A stretch of DNA of 64,000 nucleotides from Staphylococcus debuckii (GTDB lineage Bacteria > Bacillota > Bacilli > Staphylococcales > Staphylococcaceae). Of the stretch, positions 16,427 through 32,291 are shown piece by piece. Position numbers and translations under genes: made by a program. Every line of letters begins with the position of its first letter. The stretch's first letter is position 1. The stretch lies in NCBI RefSeq assembly GCF_003718735.1, contig NZ_CP033460.1, positions 310,001 through 374,000 on the forward strand, given 5' to 3'. The notes under the pieces are model-generated. The model saw only the letters and a program-made list of their open reading frames with translations. It was not told the origin of the DNA and searched no databases.

Positions 16427-17809
16427 TTACATATTGCCGATAGATAAATATTTAGTTTCTAAATAAGGTTGAATACCTTCAATACCGCCTTCACGGCCAT
16501 AACCGCTTTCTTTCATACCGCCGAATGGAGCATGAGCAGCAGAAGGACCTCCGTCGTTCCAGCCGATGACACCATAATCCAAATGATTATAGAGATGGAA
16601 TCCAGTTTTATAATCATTTGTGAAGAAGTAAGCTGCTAAACCAAATTCTGTATCATTGGCATATTGAATCGCATCATCTAATTCAGAATAACTCATCACG
16701 GGCGCAACCGGGCCGAACGTTTCTTTATGCATGATTACCATATCTTGATTTACATTAGAAATTACTACAGGCTTCAAGAAATTACCGCCTAATGACTCAA
16801 TATCTTCTAATGAACGGGAAAGTTTGCCGCCTTTAGATTCAGCATCTTTAATTTGATCAACAACTTTGTCTACTGCTTGTTGATTGATTAAAGGTCCTAC
16901 ATCAACGTCTTTATCCAGACCATTACCGACTTTCAAAGCATTCACTTTTTGAGTTAACTTTTCAACATAAGTCGACACAATATCTTCATGAACGTAAATA
17001 CGGTTAGCACAAATACAAGTTTGACCTGCATTTCTGAACTTCGTAGCAATTGTCTGGTCCACTGCAAAGTCAATATCAGCATCTTTATGAACAATAACAG
17101 GTGCCAATCCACCTAATTCCATTGTTACATTTTTAACTGAATCTGCAGCACCTTCGATTAATTTTTTGCCGACAGGAGTAGAACCTGTAAAAGTAATCTT
17201 TTGAATAATTGGGCTTTCTGTGAAAATACGACCGGCGTCTTTACCAGAAGCAATGACGTATTGAATCGCATCTTCAGGGATGCCCGCTTCATGCGCCAGT
17301 TCCACCAAACGAATCGTTGTCAAAGGCGTTTGTACAGCGGGTTTACATACAATAGTACAACCTGCAGCTAACGCAGGGGCCATTTTACGCGTAATCATTG
17401 CAGCTGGGAAGTTCCAAGGCGTAATCGCACCCACCACACCAACTGGAAATGACTGAACGATAATTTTCTTAGAAGTCGTATTTGCTGGAATTGTACGGCC
17501 ATATAGACGTTTCGCTTCTTCTGCATACCAGTCTACATATGAACGTGCATAATCCACTTCGCCTAAAGCTTCTTTCAAAGGTTTGCCGCCTTCTTTGGTA
17601 ATCAATTCAGCTAATTCTTCTTTGTGTTCATCGATTAATTGAGACCAAGCCCATAACTTTTGCGAGCGTGTATGTGCATCTACTTCTCGCCAAGACTCAA
17701 AGGCTTTCTGTGCATTTTCGATTTGTTGATGAATCGTTGCTTCATCTGTGTACTCTAAAGTTTCAATGACATCATTCGTTGCCGGGTTCAAAACTTCTAA
17801 TTTTGCCAT
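16427..17809 (-). CDS. gabD: Succinate-semialdehyde dehydrogenase
   Basis: An NAD(P)-dependent aldehyde dehydrogenase of 460 residues that oxidises succinate semialdehyde to succinate, completing GABA breakdown. Motifs seen: ITPWNFPAAMITRKMAPALA near 133-152, FTGSTPVGKKL near 211-221, the general base glutamate in MELGGLAPV near 235-243, and the catalytic cysteine in GQTCICANRIYV near 267-278. Its start overlaps the end of the permease gene by 38 bases, with GAGGTGG as ribosome binding site inside the permease coding region. It is the third gene of a gabT-permease-gabD operon. Assignment rests on the ALDH family plus that context. Confidence 0.92.
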   Translation of the reverse strand: MAKLEVLNPATNDVIETLEYTDEATIHQQIENAQKAFESWREVDAHTRSQKLWAWSQLIDEHKEELAELITKEGGKPLKEALGEVDYARSYVDWYAEEAKRLYGRTIPANTTSKKIIVQSFPVGVVGAITPWNFPAAMITRKMAPALAAGCTIVCKPAVQTPLTTIRLVELAHEAGIPEDAIQYVIASGKDAGRIFTESPIIQKITFTGSTPVGKKLIEGAADSVKNVTMELGGLAPVIVHKDADIDFAVDQTIATKFRNAGQTCICANRIYVHEDIVSTYVEKLTQKVNALKVGNGLDKDVDVGPLINQQAVDKVVDQIKDAESKGGKLSRSLEDIESLGGNFLKPVVISNVNQDMVIMHKETFGPVAPVMSYSELDDAIQYANDTEFGLAAYFFTNDYKTGFHLYNHLDYGVIGWNDGGPSAAHAPFGGMKESGYGREGGIEGIQPYLETKYLSIGNM

Positions 17810-19169
17810 TCTTTACCACCTCATTTTTCCTCTTTTGAACATAGTATAATACTGCTGCGATGCCATACCATACAAATACGATCAGCCATTCAGACGGCCA
17901 TAACAATGATGAAGGCATGCCGGGCAAGTAAATTGCTATGAACGATAAACTTAAAATAATTGCGATAATTCCTACAACTTTGCCGTTTTTAATTTTATAC
18001 GGACGCTCTAAATCTGGTGCCGTTTTTCTTAGTTTTAAGAATGATAATGCTACGAGGAAATATCCAATTACTACACCTATACCCCCTGCGTCTACAATCC
18101 ATACTAAAGCAGGGCGTCCTAATAATGGTGCTACGAAAGCTAAGATTCCTAAGAAAATAATACCATGAGTAGGCGTTTTATATTTTGGATGAATATAAGC
18201 GAACCATTTAGGAATCATACCGTTCTTAGCCATAGCATATAAAATTCTGCTTCCGCCTATAATAAAAGCGTTCCAACTTGTAATAATACCAGCTACTCCT
18301 CCGAGCACGAGTAATACACCAAAACCGCCGCTTCCAAATAAGTTTACCATCGCATCAGCAGTCGCTAAGTTGCTTGTTTTTAATTCTTTAGGTGTTAAGC
18401 CTGTAGCTACACCGAAGACAATTAATAAATAGAAAAAGACAGATGCAATGATAGAAATAATTAATATTTTTCCGATTTTCTTAGAAGGGGCTTTTACCTC
18501 TTCAGCAATTTGCGGAATAACATCGAAACCAACAAACAAGAACGGAATCATAATGAGAATGGACATTGTACCGCCGAAACCATCAACAAATAATGGTTTT
18601 AAATTATGAAAGTTTCCATTCACACCAGCGCCGCCAACTAGTAAGAGTCCGACTGCTACAATAAAAACTGTAAAGACTGTCTGCATAATCGCTGCAGGTT
18701 TAATACCGAAATAGTTAAGTGATGTTAAAATGACACTGCCGATGGATCCAATCAGTACCCAAGTTAAATAAACATCCCATCCCTGGATATTCCATAGAAA
18801 TCCTGAGTGTTTGAAAGGCAGCACGTAATCAATTACTGTAGGCAGAGCCACAGCTTCAAATGTGATAACTGAGACATAACCGAATAAAACAGACCAGCCA
18901 GAAATAAAGGCAAGCCCTGGTTTAAAGGCTTTTTTAACAAAGACAAAGCCGCCGCCAGTTTCTGGAAATGCTGAAGCTAATTCAGCATATGTCAAACCGA
19001 TAAAGATAACGAATAATCCACCAATTAGAAATGCAATAATACTCCCTAAAAATCCTGCTGTTGAAACCCATTCTCCTGATAATACAACCCATCCCCAACC
19101 GAGCATGGCTCCGATGGCAAGAAACAAAACATCCATAATGCTCATGGATTTATTGAAATGTGATTTCAT
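17772..19169 (-). CDS. APC family permease, probable GABA transporter
   Basis: A 465-residue, roughly 12-helix permease with the APC signature in helix 1 (FLAIGAMLGWGWVVLSGEW, near 16-34), TYAELASAFPETGGGFVF near 60-77, and MIPFLFVGFDVIPQIAEEV near 207-225. It lies between gabT and gabD, and overlaps gabD by 38 bases. By context it imports GABA or a GABA precursor. Other family members take up different amino acids, so the substrate is inferred. A GGGGT ribosome binding site precedes the ATG. Confidence 0.9.
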   Translation of the reverse strand: MKSHFNKSMSIMDVLFLAIGAMLGWGWVVLSGEWVSTAGFLGSIIAFLIGGLFVIFIGLTYAELASAFPETGGGFVFVKKAFKPGLAFISGWSVLFGYVSVITFEAVALPTVIDYVLPFKHSGFLWNIQGWDVYLTWVLIGSIGSVILTSLNYFGIKPAAIMQTVFTVFIVAVGLLLVGGAGVNGNFHNLKPLFVDGFGGTMSILIMIPFLFVGFDVIPQIAEEVKAPSKKIGKILIISIIASVFFYLLIVFGVATGLTPKELKTSNLATADAMVNLFGSGGFGVLLVLGGVAGIITSWNAFIIGGSRILYAMAKNGMIPKWFAYIHPKYKTPTHGIIFLGILAFVAPLLGRPALVWIVDAGGIGVVIGYFLVALSFLKLRKTAPDLERPYKIKNGKVVGIIAIILSLSFIAIYLPGMPSSLLWPSEWLIVFVWYGIAAVLYYVQKRKNEVVKNGKIRSFEPGNE

Positions 19170-19198
19170 AACGCATACCCCATTTGTTTATCTATTTT

Positions 19199-20521
19199 TT
19201 AAACGTTTGTGCTTACATTTTCTAAAATCTCCAATCCTTTATTCAGTTCTTCATCTGTAATAACAAGTGGTGTTAAGAAACGAATAACATTACCTTTAAG
19301 ACCTGCTGAGAGCAGCAAAAGTCCATTAGCATTTGCTTGTTTTACAATTTCTGCAGTTTTCGCTTTATCAGGCGCTCCTGTTTCAGGATTTACGATTTCC
19401 ATAGCAACCATTGCACCAAGACGTCTAATATCTCCTATAAAGTCGACTTTCTGTGATAATGTTTCTAGTCTATCTTGAATAACTGCACCAATATGTTCTG
19501 CTTTTTCATTAAGATTTTCTTCTTCAATAATTTCAATTACTTTTAAGGCTGCTTCACAAGCGATAGGATTACCGCAATAAGTACCGCCTAATTCTCCCGG
19601 ATTCGAACTATCCATAATTTCTGCACGACCTACAACTCCGCTAAGAGGGAAGCCGGCTGCAAGTGATTTAGAAACGGTCATTAAGTCAGGCGCTACATCA
19701 AAATGTTCCATCGCAAATGTTTTGCCAGTACGAGCAAATCCTGATTGGATTTCATCTGCTACAAATACAATATTGTGTTCATCACAAATTTCTCTGACAG
19801 CTTCTACAAATTTCTGATCCGGAATAATAAATCCACCTTCGCCTTGAACAGGTTCCATCACGATACAAGCTACTGTTTCAGGATCTACAGCTGAAATAAA
19901 GAAATCTCGTAGTTGTTGAATTGTATAATCTACATATTCTTCATCGCTTAATTTGTCGGGCTTTTCTGAAAAATTAGGATAAGGAGCTTGATAAACATCA
20001 GGCGCAAAAGGTCCAAAACCTAATTTATAAGGACGAACTTTACTTGTCATAGACATTGTTAAGTTAGTACGACCATGGAAACCGCGTACAAAGGATACAA
20101 CACCTGTTCTGCCTGTATACTTTCTGGCAATTTTAACCGCATTCTCAACGGCTTCAGCACCAGAGTTGAGTAAAATCACTTTTTTATCAAAATCACCTGG
20201 TGTCAGATGTGCTAATTTTTCAGCTAACTGCAAGTAACTTTCATACATAATGACATTAAATCCTGGATGAATAAAATCTTCAACTTTCTCTTTAATGTGC
20301 TTCACAATTTTAGGATGACTGTGACCTACATTCAAAGTACCGATTGCAGCAGCGAAATCAATATATTCATTGCCTTCAATATCAGTAACCGTAGCACCTT
20401 CAGCATGTTTAGCTACATTTAAATTGCCGTTACCGACTCCTCGTGCTACATAACGATTTCTTAATTCCCCATAAGCTTGGTTACTCATTTCTTTATTTGT
20501 TTGATTACCTTGCAATGTCAT
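19199..20521 (-). CDS. gabT: 4-aminobutyrate aminotransferase
   Basis: A PLP-dependent class III aminotransferase of 440 residues converting GABA and 2-oxoglutarate to succinate semialdehyde and glutamate. Features: the phosphate-binding segment LNSGAEAVENAVKIARKYTG near 122-141, GFHGRT near 149-154, the PLP ring aspartate in FVADEIQSGFARTGK near 251-265, and the Schiff-base lysine in MTVSKSLAAGFPLSG near 280-294. The start has a GGAGGGG site. It is the first gene of the gab operon and is divergent from gabR, 101 bases away, as in Bacillus subtilis gabTD/gabR. Confidence 0.95.
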   Translation of the reverse strand: MTLQGNQTNKEMSNQAYGELRNRYVARGVGNGNLNVAKHAEGATVTDIEGNEYIDFAAAIGTLNVGHSHPKIVKHIKEKVEDFIHPGFNVIMYESYLQLAEKLAHLTPGDFDKKVILLNSGAEAVENAVKIARKYTGRTGVVSFVRGFHGRTNLTMSMTSKVRPYKLGFGPFAPDVYQAPYPNFSEKPDKLSDEEYVDYTIQQLRDFFISAVDPETVACIVMEPVQGEGGFIIPDQKFVEAVREICDEHNIVFVADEIQSGFARTGKTFAMEHFDVAPDLMTVSKSLAAGFPLSGVVGRAEIMDSSNPGELGGTYCGNPIACEAALKVIEIIEEENLNEKAEHIGAVIQDRLETLSQKVDFIGDIRRLGAMVAMEIVNPETGAPDKAKTAEIVKQANANGLLLLSAGLKGNVIRFLTPLVITDEELNKGLEILENVSTNV

Positions 20522-20565
20522 AGAATCCCCTCCATTTGTTTATTAGGAGTATCATACGTTATAAA

Positions 20566-20608
20566 TTGGTACAATGAAAAGAACCAGAACTAGAAAAACA
20601 ATGGTACC
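20566..20608. promoter_or_regulatory. Direct repeats, likely GabR operator
   Basis: TGGTAC occurs at 20567-20572 and again at 20602-20607, 35 bases apart, in the gabT/gabR divergent promoter. Read on the minus strand the units are GTACCA, close to the ATACCA direct repeats bound by B. subtilis GabR. The helically phased spacing fits a dimer touching two sites. Confidence 0.55.
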
Positions 20609-20622
20609 AGAGGTGGTAAAAG

Positions 20623-22011
20623 ATGACAGATGAGCAAAATTATATATATAGAAAAATTTACAATCAGTTGAAAAAAGATATTTTAGACCACAAATATAAA
20701 AGTCATGAAAAACTATTGTCTAAAAGAGCGTTGGCAAAAGAAATGAATGTCAGTATTAACAGCGTAAAAACAGCTTATGAACAGTTGATTGCGGAAGGTT
20801 ATATATATACTAAAGAAAGACAAGGTTATTTTATTGAATCTTTAAATGAATTGATTGTAGAACCCAATCATCAGTCTGATGGAAATCGATTTAAAGAAAA
20901 AGTAGAAGAGAAGCCTCATTTCAAATATACTTTGTCACATATGTCCACAAATTTATCAGAATTTCCTATTGAGACATGGATCAAATTACAAAAGCAAGTA
21001 TTCAAAGAGTCTCAAGCACTCTTGTCAGAAGTGCCTTACTTTAAAGGACCTCTGCAATTGAGACAGTCCATAGCTAAATTAGTTTCATTTAAACGCGGTA
21101 TATCTTGTGATACAGAACAAATTATTGTCGGATCAGGAACGAATGCACTGATTTTATACTTATTGAAATTATTCGATCAAGCCTCGTTAATAGGTATTGA
21201 AAATCCTGGTTATACGCGTATGCGACATCTTATTCAGCAGCAGAACTTTGAAATATCCCATATTCCTTTGGACAATAAGGGAGCTTCAATACAAACCATT
21301 AAAAAGAATAATCCTCATCTCATGTTAACAACACCCTCTCATCAGTTTCCTATTGGAACTATCATGTCAATTTCTAGAAGAATTGAATTACTCAACTGGG
21401 CAACCAGTTTAGAGCATTTTATCATTGAGGATGACTATGATAGCGAATATAAATATGGGACAGATAATATACCTTCTTTGTTTAGTTTAGATAAGAATAA
21501 TAGGGTCATCTATTTAGGTACCTTTTCCAAAACACTTTTACCAGGATTAAGAATTAGTTATATGATTTTACCAGAGCAATTAGTAGCAGATTTCGAGACT
21601 GTATTTAAAGATTCAGTATCAGAAATCAGTACGTTAAATGCATTAACATTATCTAAGTTTATTGATAATGGACATTATGAGAGATATATACGGAAAATGA
21701 GCCATTTATATGAACATAAAAGAAAAAAGCTTGTGCGCATACTGAAAACGAGATTAAGTAAGAATGTCACTATTAAAAACGTAAAAGCAGGCTTACATTT
21801 TGTGATATACGTAGATTCACCTTACACATATGAACAAGTCGAGGCAAGAGCCAAAGATTATGAACTAGAATTGTACACGCTCAATCGGTTTATGCAAGAG
21901 GATATCTCCCAACAATTCGCTCAAACTATTATTATAGGTTTTGCGAATGTGGAAGATGGAAAAATGCATGAAACGGTGGAGGTATTAGATAAAGTATTGT
22001 TTGGAAGTTGA
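20623..22011 (+). CDS. gabR: MocR/GabR family regulator with aminotransferase domain
   Basis: A 462-residue fusion. The N-terminal GntR winged helix (about 8-75, KRALAKEMNVSINSVKTAYE) binds DNA, and the C-terminal fold type I aminotransferase-like domain (about 110-460) binds PLP, with FIIEDDYDSEYKYG near 267-280 and the lysine in GTFSKTLLPGLRISYM near 301-316. In B. subtilis, GABA reacting with bound PLP makes GabR activate gabTD while repressing its own gene. Divergence from gabT and the repeated TGGTAC sites support the same circuit here. Confidence 0.92.
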   Translation: MTDEQNYIYRKIYNQLKKDILDHKYKSHEKLLSKRALAKEMNVSINSVKTAYEQLIAEGYIYTKERQGYFIESLNELIVEPNHQSDGNRFKEKVEEKPHFKYTLSHMSTNLSEFPIETWIKLQKQVFKESQALLSEVPYFKGPLQLRQSIAKLVSFKRGISCDTEQIIVGSGTNALILYLLKLFDQASLIGIENPGYTRMRHLIQQQNFEISHIPLDNKGASIQTIKKNNPHLMLTTPSHQFPIGTIMSISRRIELLNWATSLEHFIIEDDYDSEYKYGTDNIPSLFSLDKNNRVIYLGTFSKTLLPGLRISYMILPEQLVADFETVFKDSVSEISTLNALTLSKFIDNGHYERYIRKMSHLYEHKRKKLVRILKTRLSKNVTIKNVKAGLHFVIYVDSPYTYEQVEARAKDYELELYTLNRFMQEDISQQFAQTIIIGFANVEDGKMHETVEVLDKVLFGS

Positions 22012-22107: not shown

Positions 22108-22136
22108 TTGACAATTTCTAAAGTGGAATAGATAAT
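22108..22136 (+). promoter_or_regulatory. Sigma-A promoter of eutW
   Basis: TTGACA (22108-22113), a 17-base spacer and GATAAT (22131-22136) form a good housekeeping promoter. Transcription would start near 22143, about 50 bases before the conserved eutW reading frame begins. Confidence 0.6.
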
Positions 22137-22288
22137 AGTATATAATTATGAATAATCAAAATATTCTAATCTCCGTACTTTGGGAATGATGCGATATAGA
22201 AAATATTCGAGAAATATGTCAACAACATACAAATTTAACTGAAGATGAAATTGAAGAAATTGAAGAATTATCCAAACACTTACAAACG

Positions 22289-23614
22289 ATGGCAAAGCTT
22301 AATGAAGCTAGTATTTTTATTGATTGTCCTACTGAAAATAACAAGCACATCATTGTAGTAGCAGAAGCCTCGCCGGACCAAAATAATATGTTATATCATA
22401 ATTCTGTTATTAAACAAAATGCTTATGAAAGATTTGAACCAGCTGTATTCGAAGTTTTTAAAACTAAGAAAAGCGTATATCATCATAGAGGAATGTCTCA
22501 AGAAGGCAAAGTGATTGAACAAAATGTTACACCTATTATTTATAATAATCGTGTGATTGCTGCATTGATTATGGAAAAAGATATCAGTAATCAATTGCTT
22601 GAAGAAAATAAAATGAAAGCACTGACTGAAGCAACTTATACGTTGAGTCAAATTGTATCGCATCCGAGTGAAAAACAATTGTTTTTTTCAGATATGATTG
22701 ATGAAAGTTTGTTCGATATCGATCAAGACTTGATTATCCGTTATTTTAATTTAACAGCAGAAAAGTTAGTAAAAGATATCGTCGGCATTGATTGTAAAAT
22801 GGGTCTTTCCTTTGTCGACTTGTTTCCTAACATAGAAGAAATGTTGACAGATGGTAAAGTAATTACCATTAAAGAGCGAAAGCTGCAAGGTCATTACTTC
22901 CAAGTAAAGTGTATTCGATTATTTGATGATTTAGGGAATGTATCAGGGCATATCATTATGCTGCATGACATCACTGATTTAAAGGAAAAAGAGAAAGAAC
23001 TTATTTCTAAATCTGTTGCGCTTCGTGAAGTGCATCACCGTGTGAAAAATAATCTTCAAACAGTTGCAAGCTTATTAAGACTGCAAATGAGAAGAGGAAT
23101 ACCTGAGGAAAGCAAACATTACTTTGAAGAGAGCTTAAACAGAATACTTAGTATTGCTTCAGTATATGAAGTAATATTAGATGGTGCGTATGCTGATCAG
23201 GTTGATATTGGGAAATTAATAATTAAAATCGGGAATATGCTTGTAAGTACAGGGAATGCACCACATTTACATATTCATTTTGACATCCAAGAATCATTTT
23301 ATCTATCATCTAATATTGCAGTTTCAGTCGCCTTGATTGCTAATGAATTGATTACAAATTGTGTCACTCATGCTTTTAATCACCAAGAAGAAGGTCATAT
23401 TGATGTTATTTTTGAAAAAAATAATAAAACGGGGAAATTAGTATTAATGGTGCAAGATGATGGACAAGAAGAACAAGGGAATTATGAGCAATCGTTTGGA
23501 CTAAATATCATAAATACAATTACTGAGAATGATTTAGAAGGACAATTTACGATTGGCCGCAATCGTCTCGGCACTTTGGGAAAGGTGGTATTTGATGATT
23601 GGGGGAGTCGCTAA
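22289..23614 (+). CDS. eutW: EutW-type sensor histidine kinase, start uncertain
   Basis: A soluble sensor kinase of 441 residues from the first in-frame ATG. The order is an N-terminal GAF-like sensing domain (about 1-115, with ASIFIDCP), a PAS domain (about 135-235), a HisKA_2 domain with the phospho-accepting histidine in REVHHRVKNNLQTVASLLRL near 246-265, and an ATPase domain (NELITNCVTHAF near 351, QSFGLNII near 409). The same frame stays open upstream to 22190 and encodes a further 33 residues typical of EutW N-termini, but it has no ATG, GTG or TTG after the TGA at 22187-22189. The true start may be non-canonical, or the gene may be damaged. In EutVW systems the kinase responds to ethanolamine and phosphorylates EutV. 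eutV follows one base after the stop. Confidence 0.88.
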   Translation: MAKLNEASIFIDCPTENNKHIIVVAEASPDQNNMLYHNSVIKQNAYERFEPAVFEVFKTKKSVYHHRGMSQEGKVIEQNVTPIIYNNRVIAALIMEKDISNQLLEENKMKALTEATYTLSQIVSHPSEKQLFFSDMIDESLFDIDQDLIIRYFNLTAEKLVKDIVGIDCKMGLSFVDLFPNIEEMLTDGKVITIKERKLQGHYFQVKCIRLFDDLGNVSGHIIMLHDITDLKEKEKELISKSVALREVHHRVKNNLQTVASLLRLQMRRGIPEESKHYFEESLNRILSIASVYEVILDGAYADQVDIGKLIIKIGNMLVSTGNAPHLHIHFDIQESFYLSSNIAVSVALIANELITNCVTHAFNHQEEGHIDVIFEKNNKTGKLVLMVQDDGQEEQGNYEQSFGLNIINTITENDLEGQFTIGRNRLGTLGKVVFDDWGSR

Positions 23615-23615
23615 A

Positions 23616-24185
23616 TTGAAAAAAATTATTGTTGCTGAAGATGATTCAATTGTACGTTTAGATATCGTTGAAATGTTGAAAGAAGCAGGTTATGACGTTG
23701 CCTCTGCTGTGGGAAATGGAGAAAAAGCAATTGAACTGAATGAAACAGAAAAACCAGATTTAATTATTATGGATATTAAGATGCCGAAGTTAAATGGCTT
23801 GAAAGCAAGTAAGATTATCAGTCAACGACATAATGTACCCATCTTAATCGTTTCTGCATTCAGTCAAAGTGAATATATTGAACAAGCTAAGGATGCAAAT
23901 ATTGTGGGATATATCATCAAACCTATTTCAGAATCTCAGTTGCTAACTGCGGTGGAAATAGCATTGGCACAATCTGTAAAGATGTCTGCACTTAGACAAG
24001 AGTCGCATGAGGCAAAAGAAGAAGTTGAGAATCGCAAACTCATAGAAAAAGCAAAAGGTTTATTAATGACTGAAATGAAATTAGATGAAGAAGCGGCTTA
24101 CCAAAAATTACGCAAACTAAGTATGAATCATCATATTTCAATGGAGAAAGTAGCCGCAAAAGTCATTAAACAGTTGACCAAATGA
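23616..24185 (+). CDS. eutV: EutV-type response regulator with ANTAR RNA-binding domain
   Basis: A 189-residue response regulator. The receiver domain (about 1-120) has the acidic pair in VAEDDS, the phosphorylated aspartate in IIMDIKMP near 53, and the conserved lysine in IIKPIS near 104. A helical linker leads to a C-terminal ANTAR domain (about 130-189), with IEKAKGLLMTEMKLDEEAAY. ANTAR proteins bind paired hexaloop hairpins in mRNA leaders and prevent termination. TTG at 23616 is the chosen start because GGGGGAG precedes it by eight bases; upstream in-frame codons overlap eutW. Likely RNA targets are the leaders at 24193-24259 and 29541-29613. Confidence 0.93.
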   Translation: MKKIIVAEDDSIVRLDIVEMLKEAGYDVASAVGNGEKAIELNETEKPDLIIMDIKMPKLNGLKASKIISQRHNVPILIVSAFSQSEYIEQAKDANIVGYIIKPISESQLLTAVEIALAQSVKMSALRQESHEAKEEVENRKLIEKAKGLLMTEMKLDEEAAYQKLRKLSMNHHISMEKVAAKVIKQLTK

Positions 24186-24192
24186 TATAAAT

Positions 24193-24259
24193 TATAAAAG
24201 TGAATAGTATACGAAGCAAAGATGCTTACATTGACCAAGAGGTCTGTAAGCATCTTTTT
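24193..24259 (+). promoter_or_regulatory. Candidate ANTAR antitermination leader of eutH
   Basis: A terminator hairpin (AGATGCTTACA at 24220-24230 with TGTAAGCATCT at 24245-24255, then TTTT) lies between eutV and eutH. Its 5' arm overlaps a smaller hairpin, AAGC-AAAGAT-GCTT (24214-24227), whose hexaloop has A at position 1 and G at position 4, the ANTAR recognition rule. TATAAAAGTGAAT (24193-24205) precedes it. The same arrangement occurs before the aldehyde dehydrogenase operon. Phosphorylated EutV would stabilise the small hairpin and allow readthrough into eutH. Confidence 0.65.
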
Positions 24260-24349
24260 GCATTTTAGGAGGTGGTTTAAAAAAGTATAGCAGAGAATTA
24301 AAACAATATTATTTCTAATAAACTCAACGATTTAATGGGGGAATGCTTT

Positions 24350-25633
24350 ATGGAACACATTGGTACAGTAATCATATATATCATCATGATTTGTGCAGTA
24401 TTGGGAGCTTTCGGAGCAATCAGGAATCCTGAAGTTGGAATAGGTAAAGAATTTATGGAAGGGATATTTACAATTGGTCCTATCTTTGCTAATTCAGCAG
24501 GAATTATGGCTTCTATTCCATTTATTTCACGTTTTATTGAGCAGGTGTTCGGGCCGTTATTTCATAAAATAGGGGCTGATCCAGCCATTGCTGCAACTTC
24601 AATCTTAGCCACAGACATGGGTGGCTACCAATTGGCAAATGTTTTGAAAGAGAGTTATGAAGGATGGATTATGGCAATGATTGTAGGTTTTATGGCAGGT
24701 GCTACAATTGTATTCTCTATTCCTTTGGGATTGCCGATGTTAGAAAAAAGAGATCATAAATATATGGCATTAGGGATATTATCTGGATTGCTAGCGATTC
24801 CTTTCGGTGTATTTATTTCTACATTTATTATGATTATGAGTCATGTAAAAATAAGAACAACAATAGAAACAGTAGGCGCAGCTACACATGTATTTTCAAT
24901 TAGTTTTTCAACAGTGTTGTTGAATTTATTGCCGTTACTCATTTTTGTTGTCATCACAGCAGCAGGTTTATACTTCTTCTCAGATATTATGATTAAAGGA
25001 TTTATCATATTTGGTAAAATATTAGATGTTTGTATCAAACTCGTCTTTGTATTTTCAGTAGTACAGATTTTTACTGGTTTTTTCACTAATGTATTTGGCG
25101 TTTGGGGATTTGACCCTATTATGGCAGATGACAAAGACAAATTCAGGGCGTTAGAAAATGCTGGGAATATCGCAATTATGCTTTCTGGAGCGTTCCCGAT
25201 GGTTTACTTAATTAGAAAATACTTTTCAAATGCATTAACCCGATTTGGACAAAAAGTAGGATTGAGTGAAGTGGGAAGTGCAGGTATTATTGCTACCATG
25301 GCTAATATTTTAGCAATGTTTAAATTGGTTAAAGATATGCCGCCTAAAGATAAAGTCATAAATATTTCGTTTGGTGTATGTTCAGCTTTCTTGCTTGGAG
25401 ACCATCTCTCTTACACTGCTAATTTCCAACCAAATTTAATCCCGGCAGTCATGATTGGTAAATTCAGTGCGGGACTCATTGCTATTGGGTTTGCTTATCT
25501 CTTATGTTTGCCTAAAGCAAGAAAATTGGAAGAAATTGATCGACGTGCAGGTATTATTAAACCTGATGAATATATCGAAGAAGAAGCAACTGAACGCGGA
25601 GAAGAGGCTCCCGAAACGAAATCTAAAATATAA
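24350..25633 (+). CDS. eutH: EutH family ethanolamine transporter
   Basis: A 427-residue integral membrane protein with about 10 hydrophobic segments. The EutH signature is present: FANSAGIMASIPFISRFIEQ near 48-67 and GADPAIAATSILATDMGGYQ near 78-97. These transporters take up ethanolamine. The ATG at 24350 follows GGGGGA with good spacing; the ATG at 24335 contains part of that site. It sits directly behind eutVW and behind a terminator that can act as an EutV-controlled attenuator. No eutBC or shell protein genes accompany it, unlike classical eut operons. Confidence 0.92.
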   Translation: MEHIGTVIIYIIMICAVLGAFGAIRNPEVGIGKEFMEGIFTIGPIFANSAGIMASIPFISRFIEQVFGPLFHKIGADPAIAATSILATDMGGYQLANVLKESYEGWIMAMIVGFMAGATIVFSIPLGLPMLEKRDHKYMALGILSGLLAIPFGVFISTFIMIMSHVKIRTTIETVGAATHVFSISFSTVLLNLLPLLIFVVITAAGLYFFSDIMIKGFIIFGKILDVCIKLVFVFSVVQIFTGFFTNVFGVWGFDPIMADDKDKFRALENAGNIAIMLSGAFPMVYLIRKYFSNALTRFGQKVGLSEVGSAGIIATMANILAMFKLVKDMPPKDKVINISFGVCSAFLLGDHLSYTANFQPNLIPAVMIGKFSAGLIAIGFAYLLCLPKARKLEEIDRRAGIIKPDEYIEEEATERGEEAPETKSKI

Positions 25634-25661
25634 ATAAAATCATACACAAATCAATCTATTA

Positions 25662-25708
25662 AAACTGCCTAAGCATCATTTATTTAATTTTGTTTAGGCA
25701 GTTTTGAT
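25662..25708 (+). terminator. Terminator after eutH
   Basis: AAAACTGCCTAAGCA and TGTTTAGGCAGTTTT form a hairpin with T-rich flank, about 30 bases after the eutH stop. Confidence 0.75.
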
Positions 25709-25734
25709 AGGGATAACAAAATTATAAAGCACAT

Positions 25735-25774
25735 TAAAACAGAGCTGAAGGGAGTTTTGATCAGCTCTGTTTTA
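25735..25774 (-). terminator. Terminator of the aldehyde dehydrogenase-ligase-SDR operon
   Basis: AAAACAGAGCTGA and TCAGCTCTGTTTT pair perfectly. On the minus strand the hairpin is followed by a T-run, downstream of the SDR gene. Confidence 0.75.
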
Positions 25775-25829
25775 ATTTAGGGTTGTTTATTTTATTTAGG
25801 AAGGTTTTAGGAGTGATTTCAGGTTATTC

Positions 25830-26597
25830 TTAGAAATAATTGGCAGTAATACCGCCATCTACATTAATATTTGCTCCATTTGTCCAATCGGATTCATCTG
25901 AAGCAAGATAGATGGCACAATTAACAATATCTTCTGGTTTGCCAAAACGTCCCGCAGGTTGACGACCAAGACGGACTGCTTTGGCTTCTTCATCAGATAC
26001 TAGCCATTCCATCAATAAAGGTGTTTCTATAGGACCAGGGCTGATAGCATTGGTTCTGATACCTTTCGGACGGAATTGAATAGCTAATGATTTTGTTAAT
26101 GCGACCACTGCACCTTTAGATGCAGTATAGGCATCTTGAGGAACCGAGCAACCCATTTGGGCTACAAAAGAAGCGATATTAATAATTGATCCAGAAGCTT
26201 GCTTTTCCATAACTGGAATAACATATTTTGTCATCAAGAAAATACCTTTGACATTGATATTCATTACTAAGTCCCAAACTGCTTGTTCAGTGTTGATAAC
26301 AGAATTATCAGCTTCAGGCATTACACCTGCATTATTGTATAACACATCAATGTGGCCATATTCTTCAACAACGCCTTCCACTGCATTTTTTACAGCTTCT
26401 TCATCAATAATATCGACTTCAAAGAAAGAAGCTTCGCCGCCATCTTGGTTGATTTGATCCACAACTTGTTTTCCTGCTTTTTGATCTCTTTCAAATACAG
26501 CGACTTTTGCACCTTCTTTAGAAAACATCTCTGCCGCGACTTTACCCATACCGCCACCGGCACCTGTTATAATGCACACCTTATCTTTTAATCTCAT
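25830..26597 (-). CDS. Short-chain dehydrogenase/reductase
   Basis: A 255-residue NAD(P)-dependent SDR. It has the nucleotide motif TGAGGGMG near 11-18, NNAG near 88-91, a catalytic serine in IINIASF near 137-143, and the YxxxK pair in YTASKGA near 157-163. The C-terminal GANINVDGG is also typical. It is the third gene after an aldehyde dehydrogenase and a glutamine synthetase-like ligase, all probably under EutV-dependent antitermination. In that setting it most plausibly oxidises the hydroxyl of gamma-glutamylethanolamide to the aldehyde; this substrate is inferred. A GAGGAGG site supports the start. Confidence 0.88.
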   Translation of the reverse strand: MRLKDKVCIITGAGGGMGKVAAEMFSKEGAKVAVFERDQKAGKQVVDQINQDGGEASFFEVDIIDEEAVKNAVEGVVEEYGHIDVLYNNAGVMPEADNSVINTEQAVWDLVMNINVKGIFLMTKYVIPVMEKQASGSIINIASFVAQMGCSVPQDAYTASKGAVVALTKSLAIQFRPKGIRTNAISPGPIETPLLMEWLVSDEEAKAVRLGRQPAGRFGKPEDIVNCAIYLASDESDWTNGANINVDGGITANYF

Positions 26598-26638
26598 TTT
26601 AAAAGCCTCCTCGTATAATAAGTTTATATTGAAAAAGA

Positions 26639-28060
26639 TTAACCTTGTTCAAAGTAACGCGCGCGTTCCCAAGTAGTTACAAATGAGTCGTATTCATCTT
26701 GTTCTGTTTGTGCTGCATGTAAATAGTGTTTTGCTACTTCTTCGCCAAGCACCTCTTTCACCACGTCACTGTTTTTCCATTCTAAAATAGCTTGATGAAG
26801 AGAAGATGGAATACGATCCACTTCATTTTGTTCATACGCATTACCTTTTAATTCATCTGCTAAAATTTCTTTATGTTCAATTCCATATAAACCTGCGCCG
26901 ATTAAAGCGGCATAAGCAAGATATGGATTCATGTCTGCTCCGCAAATACGAGATTCAAAGCGTAAAGCATTACCTTCACCCACAACACGATAACCAGCTG
27001 AACGGTTATCTTTGCTCCATGCAATACTTACTGGTGCCCAACTGTTTGGAGCAAAACGTTTATAAGAATTAATATTCGGAGCAAACATCAATGCAAAATC
27101 TTTCGTATATTTGATGACACCTGCTAAGAAATGCTGCATTGTTTCAGACATTGGATTTGAAGCATCATTACCTGCATAAAAAGCATTTTTGCCAGTATTG
27201 GTATCCATCATACTTAAATGGATATGGCCGCTTGAGCCTGTCCACTCTTCAAAAGGTTTAGCCATGAAAGTAACAGATTTCTCATTTTGAATACAAATTT
27301 CTTTCATCCCATGTTTGAACATTAAATGTTGATCTGCTGCATTGATTGCATCTGAATATTTTAAGTTGATTTCATGTTGTCCTTTGTAAGCCTCACCTTT
27401 AGAAGATTCAACGATAATATCCATCAGGCTCATTTGGCGACGTATTTCTTGATAAAGCGGTTCGTTTTTTGAACCTTGCAATAAATTATAGTCTTCGTTT
27501 AAATGACCTGCTGGTTCTAATTCATCATAACCTTGCGCATTTATGTCTTTGAATGAATCATTAAATAAGTAGAATTCTAATTCACTGGCCATATGAGGAG
27601 ATAGGCCGTAAGCTTCAGCTTTTTGGATTTGGTGCTGCAAAATATTACGCGGAGCCACGCTAATTGGTTCACTGCCATCTACTGTATATACATCTGCGAA
27701 AACCATAGCTGTACGTGACATCCAAGGAATTACTTTTAAGGTATTCCAATCTGGTAATGCTAAATAATCACCATATCCTTTATCCCAATTCATGAAATCA
27801 TAGCCATCATCTGTATCCATTTCAAAGTTTGTACCTAAAAGATAGTTGCAAAAATGTGTACCCTCTGAAATGTCATTTTCTAAAATGAAATCGCCTGTGA
27901 TACGTTTCCCCATCAAACGACCTTGCATATCGCAAAAACCAAGTACCAAAGTATCAATTTTACCTTTATCAATCATTTCCATCATTTCATCTTTTGTAAT
28001 GTTTCCTGTTTTCTTTTTGTTACGACGATGTTTGTTAAAATCATTAATCTCTCTAAACAT
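26639..28060 (-). CDS. Glutamine synthetase-like ligase (gamma-glutamylamine synthetase)
   Basis: A 473-residue member of the GlnA superfamily related to gamma-glutamylpolyamine and gamma-glutamylethanolamide synthetases rather than to GlnA. It has ASELEFYLF near 157-165 (metal-binding glutamates), KGQHEINLKYSDA near 225-237, GSSGHIHLSM near 271-280, and DNRSAGYRVV near 346-355, where the ATP-binding arginine region differs from classical NRSAAIRIP. Such enzymes join glutamate to an amine using ATP. Linkage to eutVW-eutH, an SDR and an ALDH suggests ethanolamine as the amine. Polyamines or amino alcohols remain possible. A perfect AAGGAGG ribosome binding site precedes the ATG. Confidence 0.9.
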   Translation of the reverse strand: MFREINDFNKHRRNKKKTGNITKDEMMEMIDKGKIDTLVLGFCDMQGRLMGKRITGDFILENDISEGTHFCNYLLGTNFEMDTDDGYDFMNWDKGYGDYLALPDWNTLKVIPWMSRTAMVFADVYTVDGSEPISVAPRNILQHQIQKAEAYGLSPHMASELEFYLFNDSFKDINAQGYDELEPAGHLNEDYNLLQGSKNEPLYQEIRRQMSLMDIIVESSKGEAYKGQHEINLKYSDAINAADQHLMFKHGMKEICIQNEKSVTFMAKPFEEWTGSSGHIHLSMMDTNTGKNAFYAGNDASNPMSETMQHFLAGVIKYTKDFALMFAPNINSYKRFAPNSWAPVSIAWSKDNRSAGYRVVGEGNALRFESRICGADMNPYLAYAALIGAGLYGIEHKEILADELKGNAYEQNEVDRIPSSLHQAILEWKNSDVVKEVLGEEVAKHYLHAAQTEQDEYDSFVTTWERARYFEQG

Positions 28061-28080
28061 TTGAACCGCCTCCTTAATAT

Positions 28081-29520
28081 TTATGCATCTAATGAAAGTG
28101 AGATATATTTTAATTCTAAGAAACCATCTAATCCATAATGTCCGCCTTCACGGCCCATTCCGCTTTCTTTGATACCGCCGAATGGTGCTTGAGGGACACT
28201 TAATTGAGTACCATTTACACCAATCATTCCGAAGTCTAATTGTTCACTGACTTGATAGACAGTATTTACATTGTTTGAGAAGAAATAGGCCGCTAAACCG
28301 TATGGAGAAGCATTTGCAATTTTAATAGCCTCAGCTATTGTGTCGAAAGAAATAATAGGTGCTACAGGTCCGAATATTTCTTCTTTAGCAATAGACATCT
28401 CAGGTTTAACATTTGTAACGACTGTAGGTTGATAAAATAAGTCAGAAGGTGAATCATCCACTCTTTTACCGCCTGCAGCGATATTTGCACCTTCTTTTTC
28501 AGCTTCACTTACAAGTTTTTCAACTTTTTCGATAGCTCCTGAATTAATTAATGGACCGACTTGAACATCCTTTTGATTACCAGGACCTACTCTTAACTGG
28601 TTCACACGCTCAATGATTTTAGTTGTAAGCTTATCTCTAATTTCACTTTGCGCAAGTACCGTATTAATGCCATTGCACATCTGGCCTGTATTTTCAAATT
28701 TGTTTTCTGCAATGGCATCTGCAGCTTGATCTAAGTCTGCATCATTTAGAACGATAGCTGGTGCGTTTCCGCCAAGTTCTAAAGAAATACGTTTCACTTG
28801 GTCCGCAGCTTTTTTCATTAACAACTTTCCAATTTCTGTAGATCCAGTGAAAGAAATTTTACTGACACGGCGATCATGTAATAGTGTTTCAGAAATGAGT
28901 GATGACTTGCCTGTTATCAAATTTGCTACACCATTATCGATACCGGTTGCCATTAATTCATCCATGATAGCAATCGCTATGCGCGGTGTTTCACTAGACG
29001 GTTTAACGATAACCGTACAGCCTGCTGCAAGTGCAGGTGAAACTTTTCTAGCTACCATAGCGCCTGGGAAATTCCAGGGTGTGATAAGTGCGCAAACACC
29101 TACAGGTTGTTTAATGACTGAGATGCGTTGGTTAGGGGAAGAAGGGGGTATAATCTCGCCGTATATCCGTTTTCCTTCTTCTGCATTCCATTTAATGAAT
29201 TGAACGCAACCTTCAATCTCTCCTAAAGACTCGCTATAAGGCTTACCTTGTTCTTCAGTCATGATAGAAGCGAGTTTTTCTTTTTTATGAAGCAAATTTT
29301 TAGCCCATGCATGTAAATAATCGGCACGTTCAGTAGCTGTTAATTTTGACCAAGAAGAGAACGCTTGGTATGAAGCATCGATTGCATCATTGATTAAAGC
29401 TTCAGTTACATTAGGCACCTCTCCAATCACTTCGTTTGTTGCTGGATTAGTAACTTTCAAGGCATTGTCAGTTTGAATTTTCTTGCCATTAGTCCAGTTA
29501 TGATTCAAATTATCTCCCAT
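28081..29520 (-). CDS. Aldehyde dehydrogenase family protein
   Basis: A 479-residue NAD(P)-dependent aldehyde dehydrogenase. It shows ITPWNFPGAMVARKVSPALA near 148-167, FTGSTEIGKLL near 226-236, the base glutamate in ELGGNAPAIV near 252-261, and the nucleophilic cysteine in TGQMCNGINTV near 281-291. It is similar to, but clearly distinct from, the gabD product at 16427. It leads an operon with the ligase and SDR genes. It would oxidise gamma-glutamyl-aminoacetaldehyde to gamma-glutamylglycine in the proposed ethanolamine route. Its leader carries a sigma-A promoter and an ANTAR-like attenuator. Confidence 0.92.
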   Translation of the reverse strand: MGDNLNHNWTNGKKIQTDNALKVTNPATNEVIGEVPNVTEALINDAIDASYQAFSSWSKLTATERADYLHAWAKNLLHKKEKLASIMTEEQGKPYSESLGEIEGCVQFIKWNAEEGKRIYGEIIPPSSPNQRISVIKQPVGVCALITPWNFPGAMVARKVSPALAAGCTVIVKPSSETPRIAIAIMDELMATGIDNGVANLITGKSSLISETLLHDRRVSKISFTGSTEIGKLLMKKAADQVKRISLELGGNAPAIVLNDADLDQAADAIAENKFENTGQMCNGINTVLAQSEIRDKLTTKIIERVNQLRVGPGNQKDVQVGPLINSGAIEKVEKLVSEAEKEGANIAAGGKRVDDSPSDLFYQPTVVTNVKPEMSIAKEEIFGPVAPIISFDTIAEAIKIANASPYGLAAYFFSNNVNTVYQVSEQLDFGMIGVNGTQLSVPQAPFGGIKESGMGREGGHYGLDGFLELKYISLSLDA

Positions 29521-29540
29521 ATAAATCTCCTCCTTAACAC

Positions 29541-29613
29541 AAAAAGAGGCCTACACAATTATCCTTTGCGGATATTGTATAAGCCTCTTTGCTCAATTAA
29601 ATTCACTTGTATA
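29541..29613 (-). promoter_or_regulatory. Candidate ANTAR antitermination leader of the ALDH operon
   Basis: On the minus strand a long terminator hairpin (29590 down to 29541, ending in TTTTT) precedes the ALDH gene. Its 5' arm overlaps a small hairpin GAGC-AAAGAG-GCTT (29594-29581) with an A1/G4 hexaloop nearly identical to that before eutH. TATACAAGTGAAT (29613-29601) precedes it, matching the eutH leader box with similar spacing (6 versus 8 bases). Confidence 0.65.
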
Positions 29614-29641
29614 CTTCAGAAAGTCTAGTGACTTATCAACA

Positions 29642-29670
29642 ATACTACTAAATATTCAGAACCTTGTCAA
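29642..29670 (-). promoter_or_regulatory. Sigma-A promoter of the ALDH operon
   Basis: On the minus strand TTGACA (29670-29665), a 17-base spacer and TAGTAT (29647-29642) form a strong housekeeping promoter. It starts a leader of about 115 bases that contains the candidate ANTAR element. Confidence 0.65.
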
Positions 29671-29724
29671 TATTCAATCTCTGGATTATACTGTGACCTA
29701 ACTTAAAAGAGAGAAGGTATTTCT

Positions 29725-30804
29725 ATGACAAAGACATTAGACTTATTGAAATCATTAATTGAATTTGATAGTTCAACCAAAGATGCAGCGAATAAAACAC
29801 TTCAATTTTGCAAAGCATGGTTGGAAAAAGAAGGGTTAGAACCAGTACGATTAACCAACGATGGATTCGATTCTCTTATTTGTAATATAGGGTCAGGAGA
29901 ACAACGATTAATTTTGAATGGTCATGTAGATGTTGTGAGTGGTAAACCTGATCAATTTGAACCCAAAGTTGAAGGAAATAAGATTTATGGGCGTGGTTCT
30001 GCCGATATGAAAGCGGGTGTAAGTGCCATGATGAGTGCTTTGAGCGAATTACAACATAAAGATTTAGGTAATACATCTGTTCAGTTGCAACTTGTAACGG
30101 ATGAGGAAATTGGTGGGAAACATGGTGCTAATTTCTTAACAGAACAAGGTTATTTAGGGGATTTTGTAATCTGCGGAGAGCCAACCCAACTTGGTATTGG
30201 ATATCAAGCTAAAGGGATTTTGCAAATTGATATTCACTTAAAAGGTAAATCAGCCCATGGCAGTCGTCCATGGGAAGGTGATAATGCTATTGAAAAAGCA
30301 TTAGAAACTTATCAAAAAATATTAGAATTACCTTTTGCTAAAGAATCTACAGCGTTATTTGATAGACCATCTATTAATTTGGCCAAAATCAGAGGGGGAA
30401 CAGTTTATAACAAAGTACCAGATGAAGCGGTCATTTCATATGATATACGATTTTTACCCGGCCAAAATGAAGAAGAAATTTTAAAACAGATTCAAACAAT
30501 AACGGATGGAGAAATTTCGGTTCATTTATCAGGTGCTTCTGTAATAAATGAAACAGACAATCCATTGATTCAAAAGCTGGTCAAAGAAATTTCTCAGGAA
30601 ACTCAACAACCTGCTGAAGCTGTCAAATTATTTGGGCAACATGGATTTGCCGATACAAGATATTTTGCTCGTTTCGGCACACCGGCTGTTGAGTTCGGAC
30701 CTTCTGGTGCGGCATGGCATGGAGATAATGAATATGCTGAAATTAACTCTATAGAAACTTATAAAAATATATTGGTGAAATTCGCTGAGTCTTACTCAAA
30801 ATAA
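29725..30804 (+). CDS. M20 family metallopeptidase (ArgE/DapE-like), copy 1
   Basis: A 359-residue zinc hydrolase. Metal ligands are visible in LNGHVDVV near 72-79 (His) and RGSADMKAG near 91-99 (Asp), the catalytic glutamate pair in TDEEIGG near 125-131, CGEP near 151-154, and the C-terminal histidine in AAWHGDNEYA near 331-340. M20 enzymes cleave peptides, N-acyl groups or gamma-glutamyl amides. It is divergent from the ALDH operon and could release glutamate and glycine from gamma-glutamylglycine; that role is inferred. A close paralogue lies at 50451-51554. Confidence 0.9.
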   Translation: MTKTLDLLKSLIEFDSSTKDAANKTLQFCKAWLEKEGLEPVRLTNDGFDSLICNIGSGEQRLILNGHVDVVSGKPDQFEPKVEGNKIYGRGSADMKAGVSAMMSALSELQHKDLGNTSVQLQLVTDEEIGGKHGANFLTEQGYLGDFVICGEPTQLGIGYQAKGILQIDIHLKGKSAHGSRPWEGDNAIEKALETYQKILELPFAKESTALFDRPSINLAKIRGGTVYNKVPDEAVISYDIRFLPGQNEEEILKQIQTITDGEISVHLSGASVINETDNPLIQKLVKEISQETQQPAEAVKLFGQHGFADTRYFARFGTPAVEFGPSGAAWHGDNEYAEINSIETYKNILVKFAESYSK

Positions 30805-30983: not shown

Positions 30984-32291
30984 ATGAATTTAGCAATTTT
31001 AGGCTTTATCATGATTGTTGTCTTTATGATTTTAATCATGAGTAGAAAAATGTCTGCGTTAGTTGCACTCATCGTAGTTCCAGTAGTCTTCGGCTTGATT
31101 GGGGGATTTTATTCAAGCTTAGGTAAAGACATATTGGAAGGTTTGACTACCGTAGCGCCGACCGGAATTATGTTAATCTTTGCAATACTTTATTTTGGGG
31201 TCATGATTGATGCAGGATTATTCAATCCTATCATCAGCATAATTATGAAAGGTGTTAAGGGTGATCCGGTTAAAATCACTATCGGTACAGTTGCTTTAGC
31301 ATCAATTGTAGCGCTGGATGGAGACGGTACAACAACTTTTATTATTACAGTAACAGCAATGATGCCGCTTTATAAGAAAATGGGGATGAACCTATACATA
31401 TTATCTACTTTAGCGTTGCTCTCAATCGGAGTCATGAATATGACACCATGGGGAGGACCGACAGCTCGTGCGATTTCTTCACTGCAATTAACGACTGAAG
31501 AAGTTTTCACACCTCTTATTCCAGTTATGGTTGCAGGTATCCTTTTTGCCTTCTTCGCTGCATATGTTTTAGGTCTCAGAGAAAGAAAAAGAATTGGCAT
31601 TCAGAATCATCTTTCACTCACGTTAGATGAAATGAATAATGCGAATGGGACAAATGAAGAAGATAAAGAATTACTGAGACCGAAATTAACGATAATCAAT
31701 GCGATTTTAACGATTGCATTATTAAGTGCTTTGATTACAAGTTTCTTACCTATTCCGGTACTCTTCATGCTTGGTTTTGCAGTAGCATTGATTATCAACT
31801 ATCCGCATTTGAATGTACAATCTGAGATTATTAAACGCCATGCAGGCAATGTATTAGCGGTGGTAAGTTTAGTATTCGCTTCAGGCGTATTCACAGGTGT
31901 CATGAGTGGTACCAAAATGGTGGACGCAATGGCAAGTTCATTAGTAAATATTGTACCAGATGCCATGGGAAATCATTTTGCTTTAATCACGGCCATTTTA
32001 AGTATGCCATTTACCTACTTCATGGCAAATGATCCTTTCTATTATGGCATTCTACCGATACTCGCAGAATCTGCACATCAATTCGGGATTTCTAAAGCCA
32101 TGATGGCAAGAGCATCTATTTTAGGACAGCCTCTGCATGTACTAAGTCCATTATACGCAGCCGGTTATTTATTGGTAGGTATGCTTGGTATCGATTATGG
32201 TACTAACCAGAAGATTGTAATGAAGTGGGCGATCGGATCTTCATTATTTATGATTTTAGTGGCTGGTTTAATTGGAATTATTGCATTTTAA
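30984..32291 (+). CDS. CitMHS family citrate/divalent metal transporter
   Basis: A 435-residue membrane transporter with about 12 hydrophobic segments. IVALDGDGTTTFIITVTAMM near 109-128 and MTPWGGPTARA near 153-163 are characteristic of CitMHS (CitM/CitH) proteins, which import citrate complexed with Mg or Ca in symport with protons. A GAATATAGACAAGGGGAG ribosome binding region precedes the ATG. It stands alone, with a terminator after it. Whether its substrate is citrate or another carboxylate from the neighbouring pathway is open. Confidence 0.88.
   Translation: MNLAILGFIMIVVFMILIMSRKMSALVALIVVPVVFGLIGGFYSSLGKDILEGLTTVAPTGIMLIFAILYFGVMIDAGLFNPIISIIMKGVKGDPVKITIGTVALASIVALDGDGTTTFIITVTAMMPLYKKMGMNLYILSTLALLSIGVMNMTPWGGPTARAISSLQLTTEEVFTPLIPVMVAGILFAFFAAYVLGLRERKRIGIQNHLSLTLDEMNNANGTNEEDKELLRPKLTIINAILTIALLSALITSFLPIPVLFMLGFAVALIINYPHLNVQSEIIKRHAGNVLAVVSLVFASGVFTGVMSGTKMVDAMASSLVNIVPDAMGNHFALITAILSMPFTYFMANDPFYYGILPILAESAHQFGISKAMMARASILGQPLHVLSPLYAAGYLLVGMLGIDYGTNQKIVMKWAIGSSLFMILVAGLIGIIAF

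Follow-up and report, generated by a model that had tools for sequence, protein, structure and literature searches.

A probable B12-independent ethanolamine utilisation module under EutVW control in Staphylococcus debuckii

In Firmicutes, the regulatory pair EutVW and the transporter EutH have been described with the B12-dependent EutBC route of ethanolamine use (PMC5821096, PMC9397018). The window analysed here, a stretch of 64,000 nucleotides from Staphylococcus debuckii (contig NZ_CP033460.1, positions 310,001 to 374,000), contains a locus without EutBC, in which genes for a EutW-type kinase, a EutV-type regulator and EutH accompany genes for an aldehyde dehydrogenase (ALDH), a glutamine synthetase (GS)-like ligase, a short-chain dehydrogenase/reductase (SDR) and an M20 peptidase. 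All seven had been named in an original prediction made from the sequence alone, and all were recovered by open reading frame and family searches. We consider it likely that they form a B12-independent ethanolamine utilisation module that is controlled by EutVW and proceeds through gamma-glutamylated intermediates, with the M20 peptidase as the probable hydrolase. A group of Staphylococcus species probably uses ethanolamine by joining it to glutamate, independently of vitamin B12; the genes seem to be switched on by RNA antitermination, a type of control previously described for B12-dependent use.

None of the genes that mark the EutBC/Eut microcompartment pathway (EutB, EutC and the bacterial microcompartment (BMC) shell genes) was found. 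The host genome, a single contig of 2.69 Mb that is 99.99% complete, contained no match to EutB or EutC, and neither EutB nor BMC shell proteins were detected in any of 84 Staphylococcus genomes, whereas the E. coli control was matched. The lack of eutBC and shell genes that had been noted for the locus therefore extends to these wider searches; the genome-wide search for eutB and eutC had been set beforehand as a check, and the microcompartment named as contrary evidence was likewise not found. Rfam at gathering thresholds matched nothing in the window, which therefore shows no cobalamin riboswitch; no search was made for cobalamin biosynthesis genes in the rest of the genome. The ligase (E ≤ 1e-100), the ANTAR domain and EutH were each present in 21 of the 84 Staphylococcus genomes, and these were the same 21; the probability of two such sets being identical by chance is ~3e-20, a figure that serves only as a guide because Staphylococcus species are related. 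The S. debuckii genome has two GS-family genes, glnA and the pathway ligase, and a single ANTAR protein, the EutV of the window. Among 398 sampled Bacilli genomes, the ligase was found in 35 and EutB in 64; six genomes, all of one family (G104, G166, G325, G399, G439 and G447), had both, so that 29 ligase genomes were without EutB. Ranked by ligase score, these six lie within the bottom seven, where the remaining one (G290) is a partial match in a genome without EutB.

Gene order was also conserved. A contig scan yielded 15 relatives, ten in Staphylococcus and five in Fictibacillus/Scopulibacillus loci. The arrangement of M20 and ALDH-ligase-SDR was kept in all ten Staphylococcus loci, and convergent eutH, eutV and eutW were found in nine, the contig of the tenth (L008) ending first. 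In the Fictibacillus/Scopulibacillus loci, the genes were ordered eutW-eutV-ALDH-ligase-SDR-permease on one strand. When loci from 20 of the 28 non-Staphylococcus ligase genomes of the Bacilli sample were fetched, ALDH-ligase-SDR was present in all 20, with EutV and EutW nearby in eight.

The features of the ligase are those expected of a gamma-glutamylethanolamide pathway, in which a GS-like ligase lacks the flap Glu of the ammonium-dependent enzyme. Its best solved relatives were 11zs (388 bits) and 5dm3 (367 bits), the latter presumably the Chromohalobacter salexigens protein whose gene neighbours that of an ethanolamine-binding protein, a label for which the papers searched gave no confirmation. 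Other Protein Data Bank entries named glutamine synthetase reached at most 192 bits, glutamate-methylamine ligase 129 bits and PauA7 (4hpp) 48 bits. The possibilities that the ligase is a true glutamine synthetase or a gamma-glutamylputrescine synthetase were rejected, with all scores below the NCBIfam cut-offs (245 against 469.6, 241 against 429.15 and 206 against 650 bits, the last for the gamma-glutamylputrescine synthetase model). The catalytic motifs are kept, and the position of the GS flap Glu, aligned to GlnA, is occupied by Trp341, which was invariant in all 26 aligned sequences. PauA7 is reported to have Trp and GlnA4 Phe at this position (PMC6529630); in having Trp here, the Staphylococcus ligase resembles gamma-glutamyl-amine ligases. 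Among plasmid-borne relatives of the ligase (677 records, of which five contexts were viewed), that of Thermomicrobium roseum (51% identity) precedes an SDR-type gene and a gene annotated as an ethanolamine permease, and that of Paracoccus denitrificans (43% identity) lies in an operon of RpiR, amidohydrolase, TRAP transporter, ligase, ALDH and iron-containing alcohol dehydrogenase genes, which is the layout given for ethanolamine use in Phaeobacter (PMC10132767). ALDH also follows the ligase in Ruegeria, Rhizobium and Aminobacter, where the transporters differ; the Rhizobium context looks like that of another pathway.

The transporters of a second EutVW lineage, that of Fictibacillus-type Bacilli, also point to ethanolamine. 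In loci ordered eutW-eutV-(hydrolase)-ALDH-ligase-SDR-permease, all eight permeases tested (L011 to L015, L087, L088 and L091; L089 was left out) scored 473–495 bits against a cut-off of 381.75 for the ethanolamine permease model TIGR00908; one set of enzymes and regulator is therefore combined with either of two predicted ethanolamine transporters, which are unrelated to each other. Together with the presence of ligase, ANTAR protein and EutH in one and the same set of Staphylococcus genomes, this supports the proposal that ethanolamine is the substrate of a gamma-glutamyl route. We regard it as unlikely that the route serves chiefly another substrate (putrescine, isopropylamine/alaninol or 1-amino-2-propanol) that EutH and EutVW would carry or sense. 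The amine substrate does vary among GS-like ligases, the APC permeases of four loci of other layouts (L103, L094, L097 and L105) fell below the TIGR00908 cut-off, and the Rhizobium relative is apparently part of a different pathway; against these stand the EutH score above its cut-off and its strict co-distribution, the second lineage's permeases, the low gamma-glutamylputrescine synthetase score, and the SDR, rather than an amine oxidase, that follows the ligase.

An alcohol dehydrogenase and an aldehyde dehydrogenase in one operon are likewise expected of the pathway, and the SDR and the ALDH both have their catalytic motifs. By homology and by analogy with the schemes published for Streptomyces and Phaeobacter, they would catalyse the two oxidations. 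Window positions 16427–22011 hold a self-contained gamma-aminobutyrate (GABA) cluster, consisting of a succinate-semialdehyde dehydrogenase (SSADH)-like ALDH, an APC permease, GabT and a divergent GabR. The idea that the ALDH of the locus belongs to this cluster, and that two unrelated modules merely lie side by side, is already disfavoured and in our estimate highly improbable. The SSADH model did give the ALDH its best score (565 bits, below the cut-off of 646), and GabT, the permease and GabR are next door; however, the cluster has an SSADH-like gene of its own (16427–17809), only 42% identical to the ALDH, which led us to reject the ALDH as its SSADH. Moreover, ALDH-ligase-SDR stays together outside Staphylococcus, as described above, and no GABA genes turned up in the flanks of ten named Staphylococcus loci.

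Because Rfam matched nothing in the window, the ANTAR element was sought by reading the leader sequences in front of eutH and in front of the ALDH-ligase-SDR operon. Both leaders have a box, AAGTGAAT, followed after 7–11 bases by a hairpin of the form (A/G)GC-A..G..-GC(T/C) and then by a terminator, in which the loop and 3′ arm of the hairpin pair with a downstream arm. The hairpin resembles the 13-base eut motif of the literature. Box (at most one mismatch), hexaloop and terminator occurred once in each of the 38 leaders from 19 Staphylococcus loci (the window and 18 fetched). The hairpin was also present in all 13 EutVW-plus-ligase loci outside Staphylococcus, with at most two mismatches in the box and, in L104, no T-run; for L088, L089, L091, L103 and L104, the stretches examined were placed using other results of the analysis. 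The motif was not found in any of the 12 ligase loci that have no EutVW nearby, but occurred in three of 18 eutB loci (L150, L151 and L153), where EutV and EutH neighbour each other. At all of the 40 unique sites, the third pair of the stem was formed (A-T in 31, G-C in nine), whereas none of 500 shuffles gave more than 37 paired sites; the fourth pair was formed at 31 sites (shuffle maximum 32), and the first two were fixed by the search pattern. In minimum free energy (MFE) folds, the hairpin arm lay inside the terminator in 36 of 39 unique sites, the fortieth having no T-run. A loose leader pattern matched the genome three times, at the two leaders and at one site that was taken as a chance match, no terminator following it; a reversed control pattern also gave one match. 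The reported EutV target is a hexaloop with A1 and G4 that overlaps a terminator (PMC3369931; PMC8934654), and the Staphylococcus leaders, which have such a hexaloop as expected of EutVW targets, fit it in the single hexaloop and not in the upstream one. The predicted EutVW control of the pathway thereby gains sequence support before both eutH and the enzyme operon. The same box and hairpin occur before eutW outside Staphylococcus (about 200 bases upstream in L011–L013, L015 and L087, and at L014:6315), which suggests autoregulation there.

The other part of a EutVW system, a PdtaS/EutW-type kinase beside a receiver-ANTAR regulator, is also present. EutV keeps the RNA-contact residues named in PMC8934654 when these are mapped onto 6wsh with an inferred numbering offset. 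When 36 EutV proteins (22 of ligase loci and 14 of eutB loci) were placed in a tree, the two groups were intermixed, with four label changes in the best tree and three to five in bootstraps, which suggests that EutVW pairs are common to both ethanolamine routes and speaks for ethanolamine as the signal. In the EutH tree, the Staphylococcus proteins formed one clade, which is silent on swapping.

Several findings weigh against the module as proposed. EutV scored higher against 1s8n (161 bits), which we take to be PdtaR, than against E. faecalis EutV (6wsh, 128 bits). Only one label change in the EutV tree was forced by starred (well-supported) branches, and repeated swapping is therefore suggested but not proven. 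EutVW was not found near 12 of the 20 fetched non-Staphylococcus ligase loci, and hence the pathway itself does not depend on this regulator. The ligase of one of the 21 Staphylococcus genomes (G035; L064/L115) has an internal TAA, yet this species has kept EutH and the ANTAR protein. The kinase gene has an odd start, which is described below. The canonical first hexaloop (P1), which is required for antitermination in E. faecalis, was not seen upstream of the hairpin: over the 40 sites, the flanks of the box paired no more than shuffled sequences in two registers, and a P1 hexaloop at the box was rejected in both. Two hexaloops in tandem were read by eye in eutB loci L137, L139 and L140, which belong to another family with eutV before eutW. 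Finally, no ANTAR leader was seen before the M20 gene, and in other Bacilli the corresponding slot is taken by other hydrolases or by none that we could identify.

The last two points concern the final cleavage, the weakest step, for which the M20 peptidase is proposed from gene position only and whose family differs from the amidotransferase and amidohydrolase published for this route. It is a real though lesser possibility that the first three steps are as proposed and that another gamma-glutamyl hydrolase or transferase completes the pathway, the M20 enzyme, which is on its own transcript, acting on other peptides. The slot is occupied by a Peptidase C26 protein behind an ANTAR-type leader in L088, by an M20D amidohydrolase in L012, and by distant M20 relatives (25–28% identity) in L097–L102; such varied hydrolases in one slot would fit a hydrolytic last step. 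In favour of M20, on the other hand, it adjoins the operon in 10 of 10 and 18 of 18 Staphylococcus loci, two sets that share some species, and the M20D gene of L012 has an ANTAR-type leader (4708) directly upstream. In L089 (~6300–6560), a C26-like gene comparable to that of L088 lies behind an ANTAR-type leader and is seemingly shortened to its two ends.

In the scheme that we propose, EutH would import ethanolamine, and EutW, as inferred from E. faecalis, would sense it and phosphorylate EutV. On both nascent leaders, that of eutH and that of the ALDH-ligase-SDR operon, EutV would bind the hexaloop hairpin and block the terminator, and therefore transporter and enzymes would be made. The ligase would then join ethanolamine to the gamma-carboxyl of glutamate at the expense of ATP, the SDR would oxidise the alcohol group to give an aldehyde, which the ALDH would convert to gamma-glutamylglycine, and a hydrolase, probably the neighbouring M20 enzyme, would release glutamate and glycine. 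We hold it very unlikely that the ligase chiefly detoxifies ethanolamine by glutamylation, with no real catabolism: the ATP cost per molecule and the cytotoxicity of ethanolamine, discussed as a reason for control in PMC9397018, would agree with such a role, but a dedicated importer with the same leader type as the enzymes and two dehydrogenases after the ligase argue for catabolism.

The gamma-glutamyl ethanolamine route has been published for Streptomyces (PMC6529630) and for marine bacteria (Phaeobacter; PMC10132767, which also cites Chromohalobacter and Agrobacterium). GlnA4 of Streptomyces is described as a gamma-glutamylethanolamide synthetase in PMC6529630, as the original prediction had stated, and the S. 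coelicolor GlnA4 cluster similarly combines a GS-like ligase with a replaced flap Glu, an SDR and an aldehyde dehydrogenase and needs no EutBC. As described there, it has a DNA-binding repressor, no EutH and an amidotransferase as the final enzyme, whereas Staphylococcus has EutH, EutVW, antitermination leaders and, as proposed, M20. The operon of Phaeobacter sp. MED193 (EtoVWX, ETAGA, GAADDH, GETADH and GGAH; PMC10132767) likewise clusters the ligase family, ALDH, a hydrolase and an ethanolamine transporter, the likeness of the ligase family being judged through the Paracoccus protein of that layout (43% identity); according to that source, it has a TRAP transporter, an RpiR regulator and an iron-containing alcohol dehydrogenase where Staphylococcus has EutH, EutVW and the SDR. 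The E. faecalis EutVW system (PMC3369931, PMC8934654; reviewed in PMC5821096) shares the kinase and ANTAR regulator, the A1/G4 hexaloop overlapping a terminator and EutH. There, the reported targets are EutBC/microcompartment genes with a dual hexaloop, and EutVW is tied to adenosylcobalamin through a riboswitch RNA (PMC5821096); in Staphylococcus, the targets are gamma-glutamyl enzymes with one hexaloop and an unpaired box, with no riboswitch match in the window. The Puu pathway of E. coli and the PauA pathway of Pseudomonas follow the same logic of glutamylating, oxidising and hydrolysing an amine, but the Staphylococcus ligase is remote from their synthetases by the scores given above, and the operon has no amine oxidase.

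No paper pairing EutV or EutW with the gamma-glutamyl route, or placing this route in Staphylococcus or Bacilli, was found among the matches listed from titles and abstract starts of the open-licence literature, in keeping with the prediction that such control would be a new combination. The occurrence of the route in Bacilli, its coupling to EutVW and EutH, and a target RNA with an unpaired AAGUGAAU box replacing the first hexaloop thus look new. We give an even chance to the broader view that EutVW is a portable ethanolamine sensor, mounted in Bacilli on two unrelated routes, a B12-dependent lyase and a B12-free gamma-glutamyl route, and that its target here is of a new type, one hexaloop after the unpaired box, with no cobalamin checkpoint. 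If the scheme is true, a quarter of the sampled Staphylococcus species (21/84) can use a breakdown product of membrane lipids with neither B12 nor a microcompartment, by genes annotated only as glutamine synthetase. The leaders would also offer a natural test of ANTAR recognition, as EutV targets without the canonical first hairpin, belonging to a EutVW circuit near which no cobalamin riboswitch was detected.

Table 1. Features of the locus and its leaders (window positions)
Feature	Position	Strand	Evidence
EutW-type sensor histidine kinase	22190..23614	+	GAF_PdtaS, HisKA_2; ATG at 22289
EutV-type response regulator, ANTAR output domain	23616..24185	+	Response_reg and ANTAR; TTG start
AAGTGAAT box, eutH leader	24198..24205	+	
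ANTAR-type hairpin AAGC-AAAGAT-GCTT (hexaloop A1, G4), eutH leader	24214..24227	+	
Predicted intrinsic terminator, eutH leader, sharing hairpin loop and 3′ arm	24218..24257	+	MFE −22.1 kcal/mol, folded segment
eutH, ethanolamine transporter	24350..25633	+	NF011668, 688.5 bits (cut-off 575)
SDR, proposed gamma-glutamylethanolamide dehydrogenase	25830..26597	-	adh_short_C2; motifs TGAGGGMG, NNAG, YTASK
GS-like ligase, proposed gamma-glutamylethanolamide synthetase	26639..28060	-	Gln-synt_C; PDB relatives 11zs, 5dm3; Trp341
ALDH, proposed gamma-glutamyl-aminoacetaldehyde dehydrogenase	28081..29520	-	Aldedh; motifs ELGGN, GQMCN
Predicted intrinsic terminator, ALDH-operon leader	29543..29590	-	MFE −28.8 kcal/mol, folded segment
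ANTAR-type hairpin TGAGC-AAAGAG-GCTTA (hexaloop A1, G4), ALDH-operon leader	29580..29595	-	
AAGTGAAT box, ALDH-operon leader	29601..29608	-	
Promoter-like TTGACA-N17-TANNNT, ALDH operon	29642..29670	-	In 19/19 Staphylococcus loci
M20 peptidase, proposed gamma-glutamylglycine hydrolase	29725..30804	+	Peptidase_M20 and M20_dimer; usual M20 motifs

The layout in Table 1 departs in two respects from the one first proposed. The ALDH-ligase-SDR operon, called divergent, does diverge from the M20 gene, but is convergent relative to eutH. Position 22108 does not hold as a gene start: the kinase frame has an in-frame TGA at 22187–22189 and no ATG, GTG or TTG from there to 22289, and conserved residues are coded from 22190 on. 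In seven of the 19 Staphylococcus loci (the window and L107–L112), eutW has no ATG, GTG or TTG between the upstream in-frame stop and the conserved N-terminal codons; translation might begin at an AUA, AUU or AUC that occupies the same codon of the alignment, or else at an overlapping ATG followed by a frameshift. Downstream of the M20 gene, window positions 30984–32291 encode a protein of the citrate:proton symporter family (TIGR00784, 568 bits against a cut-off of 260).

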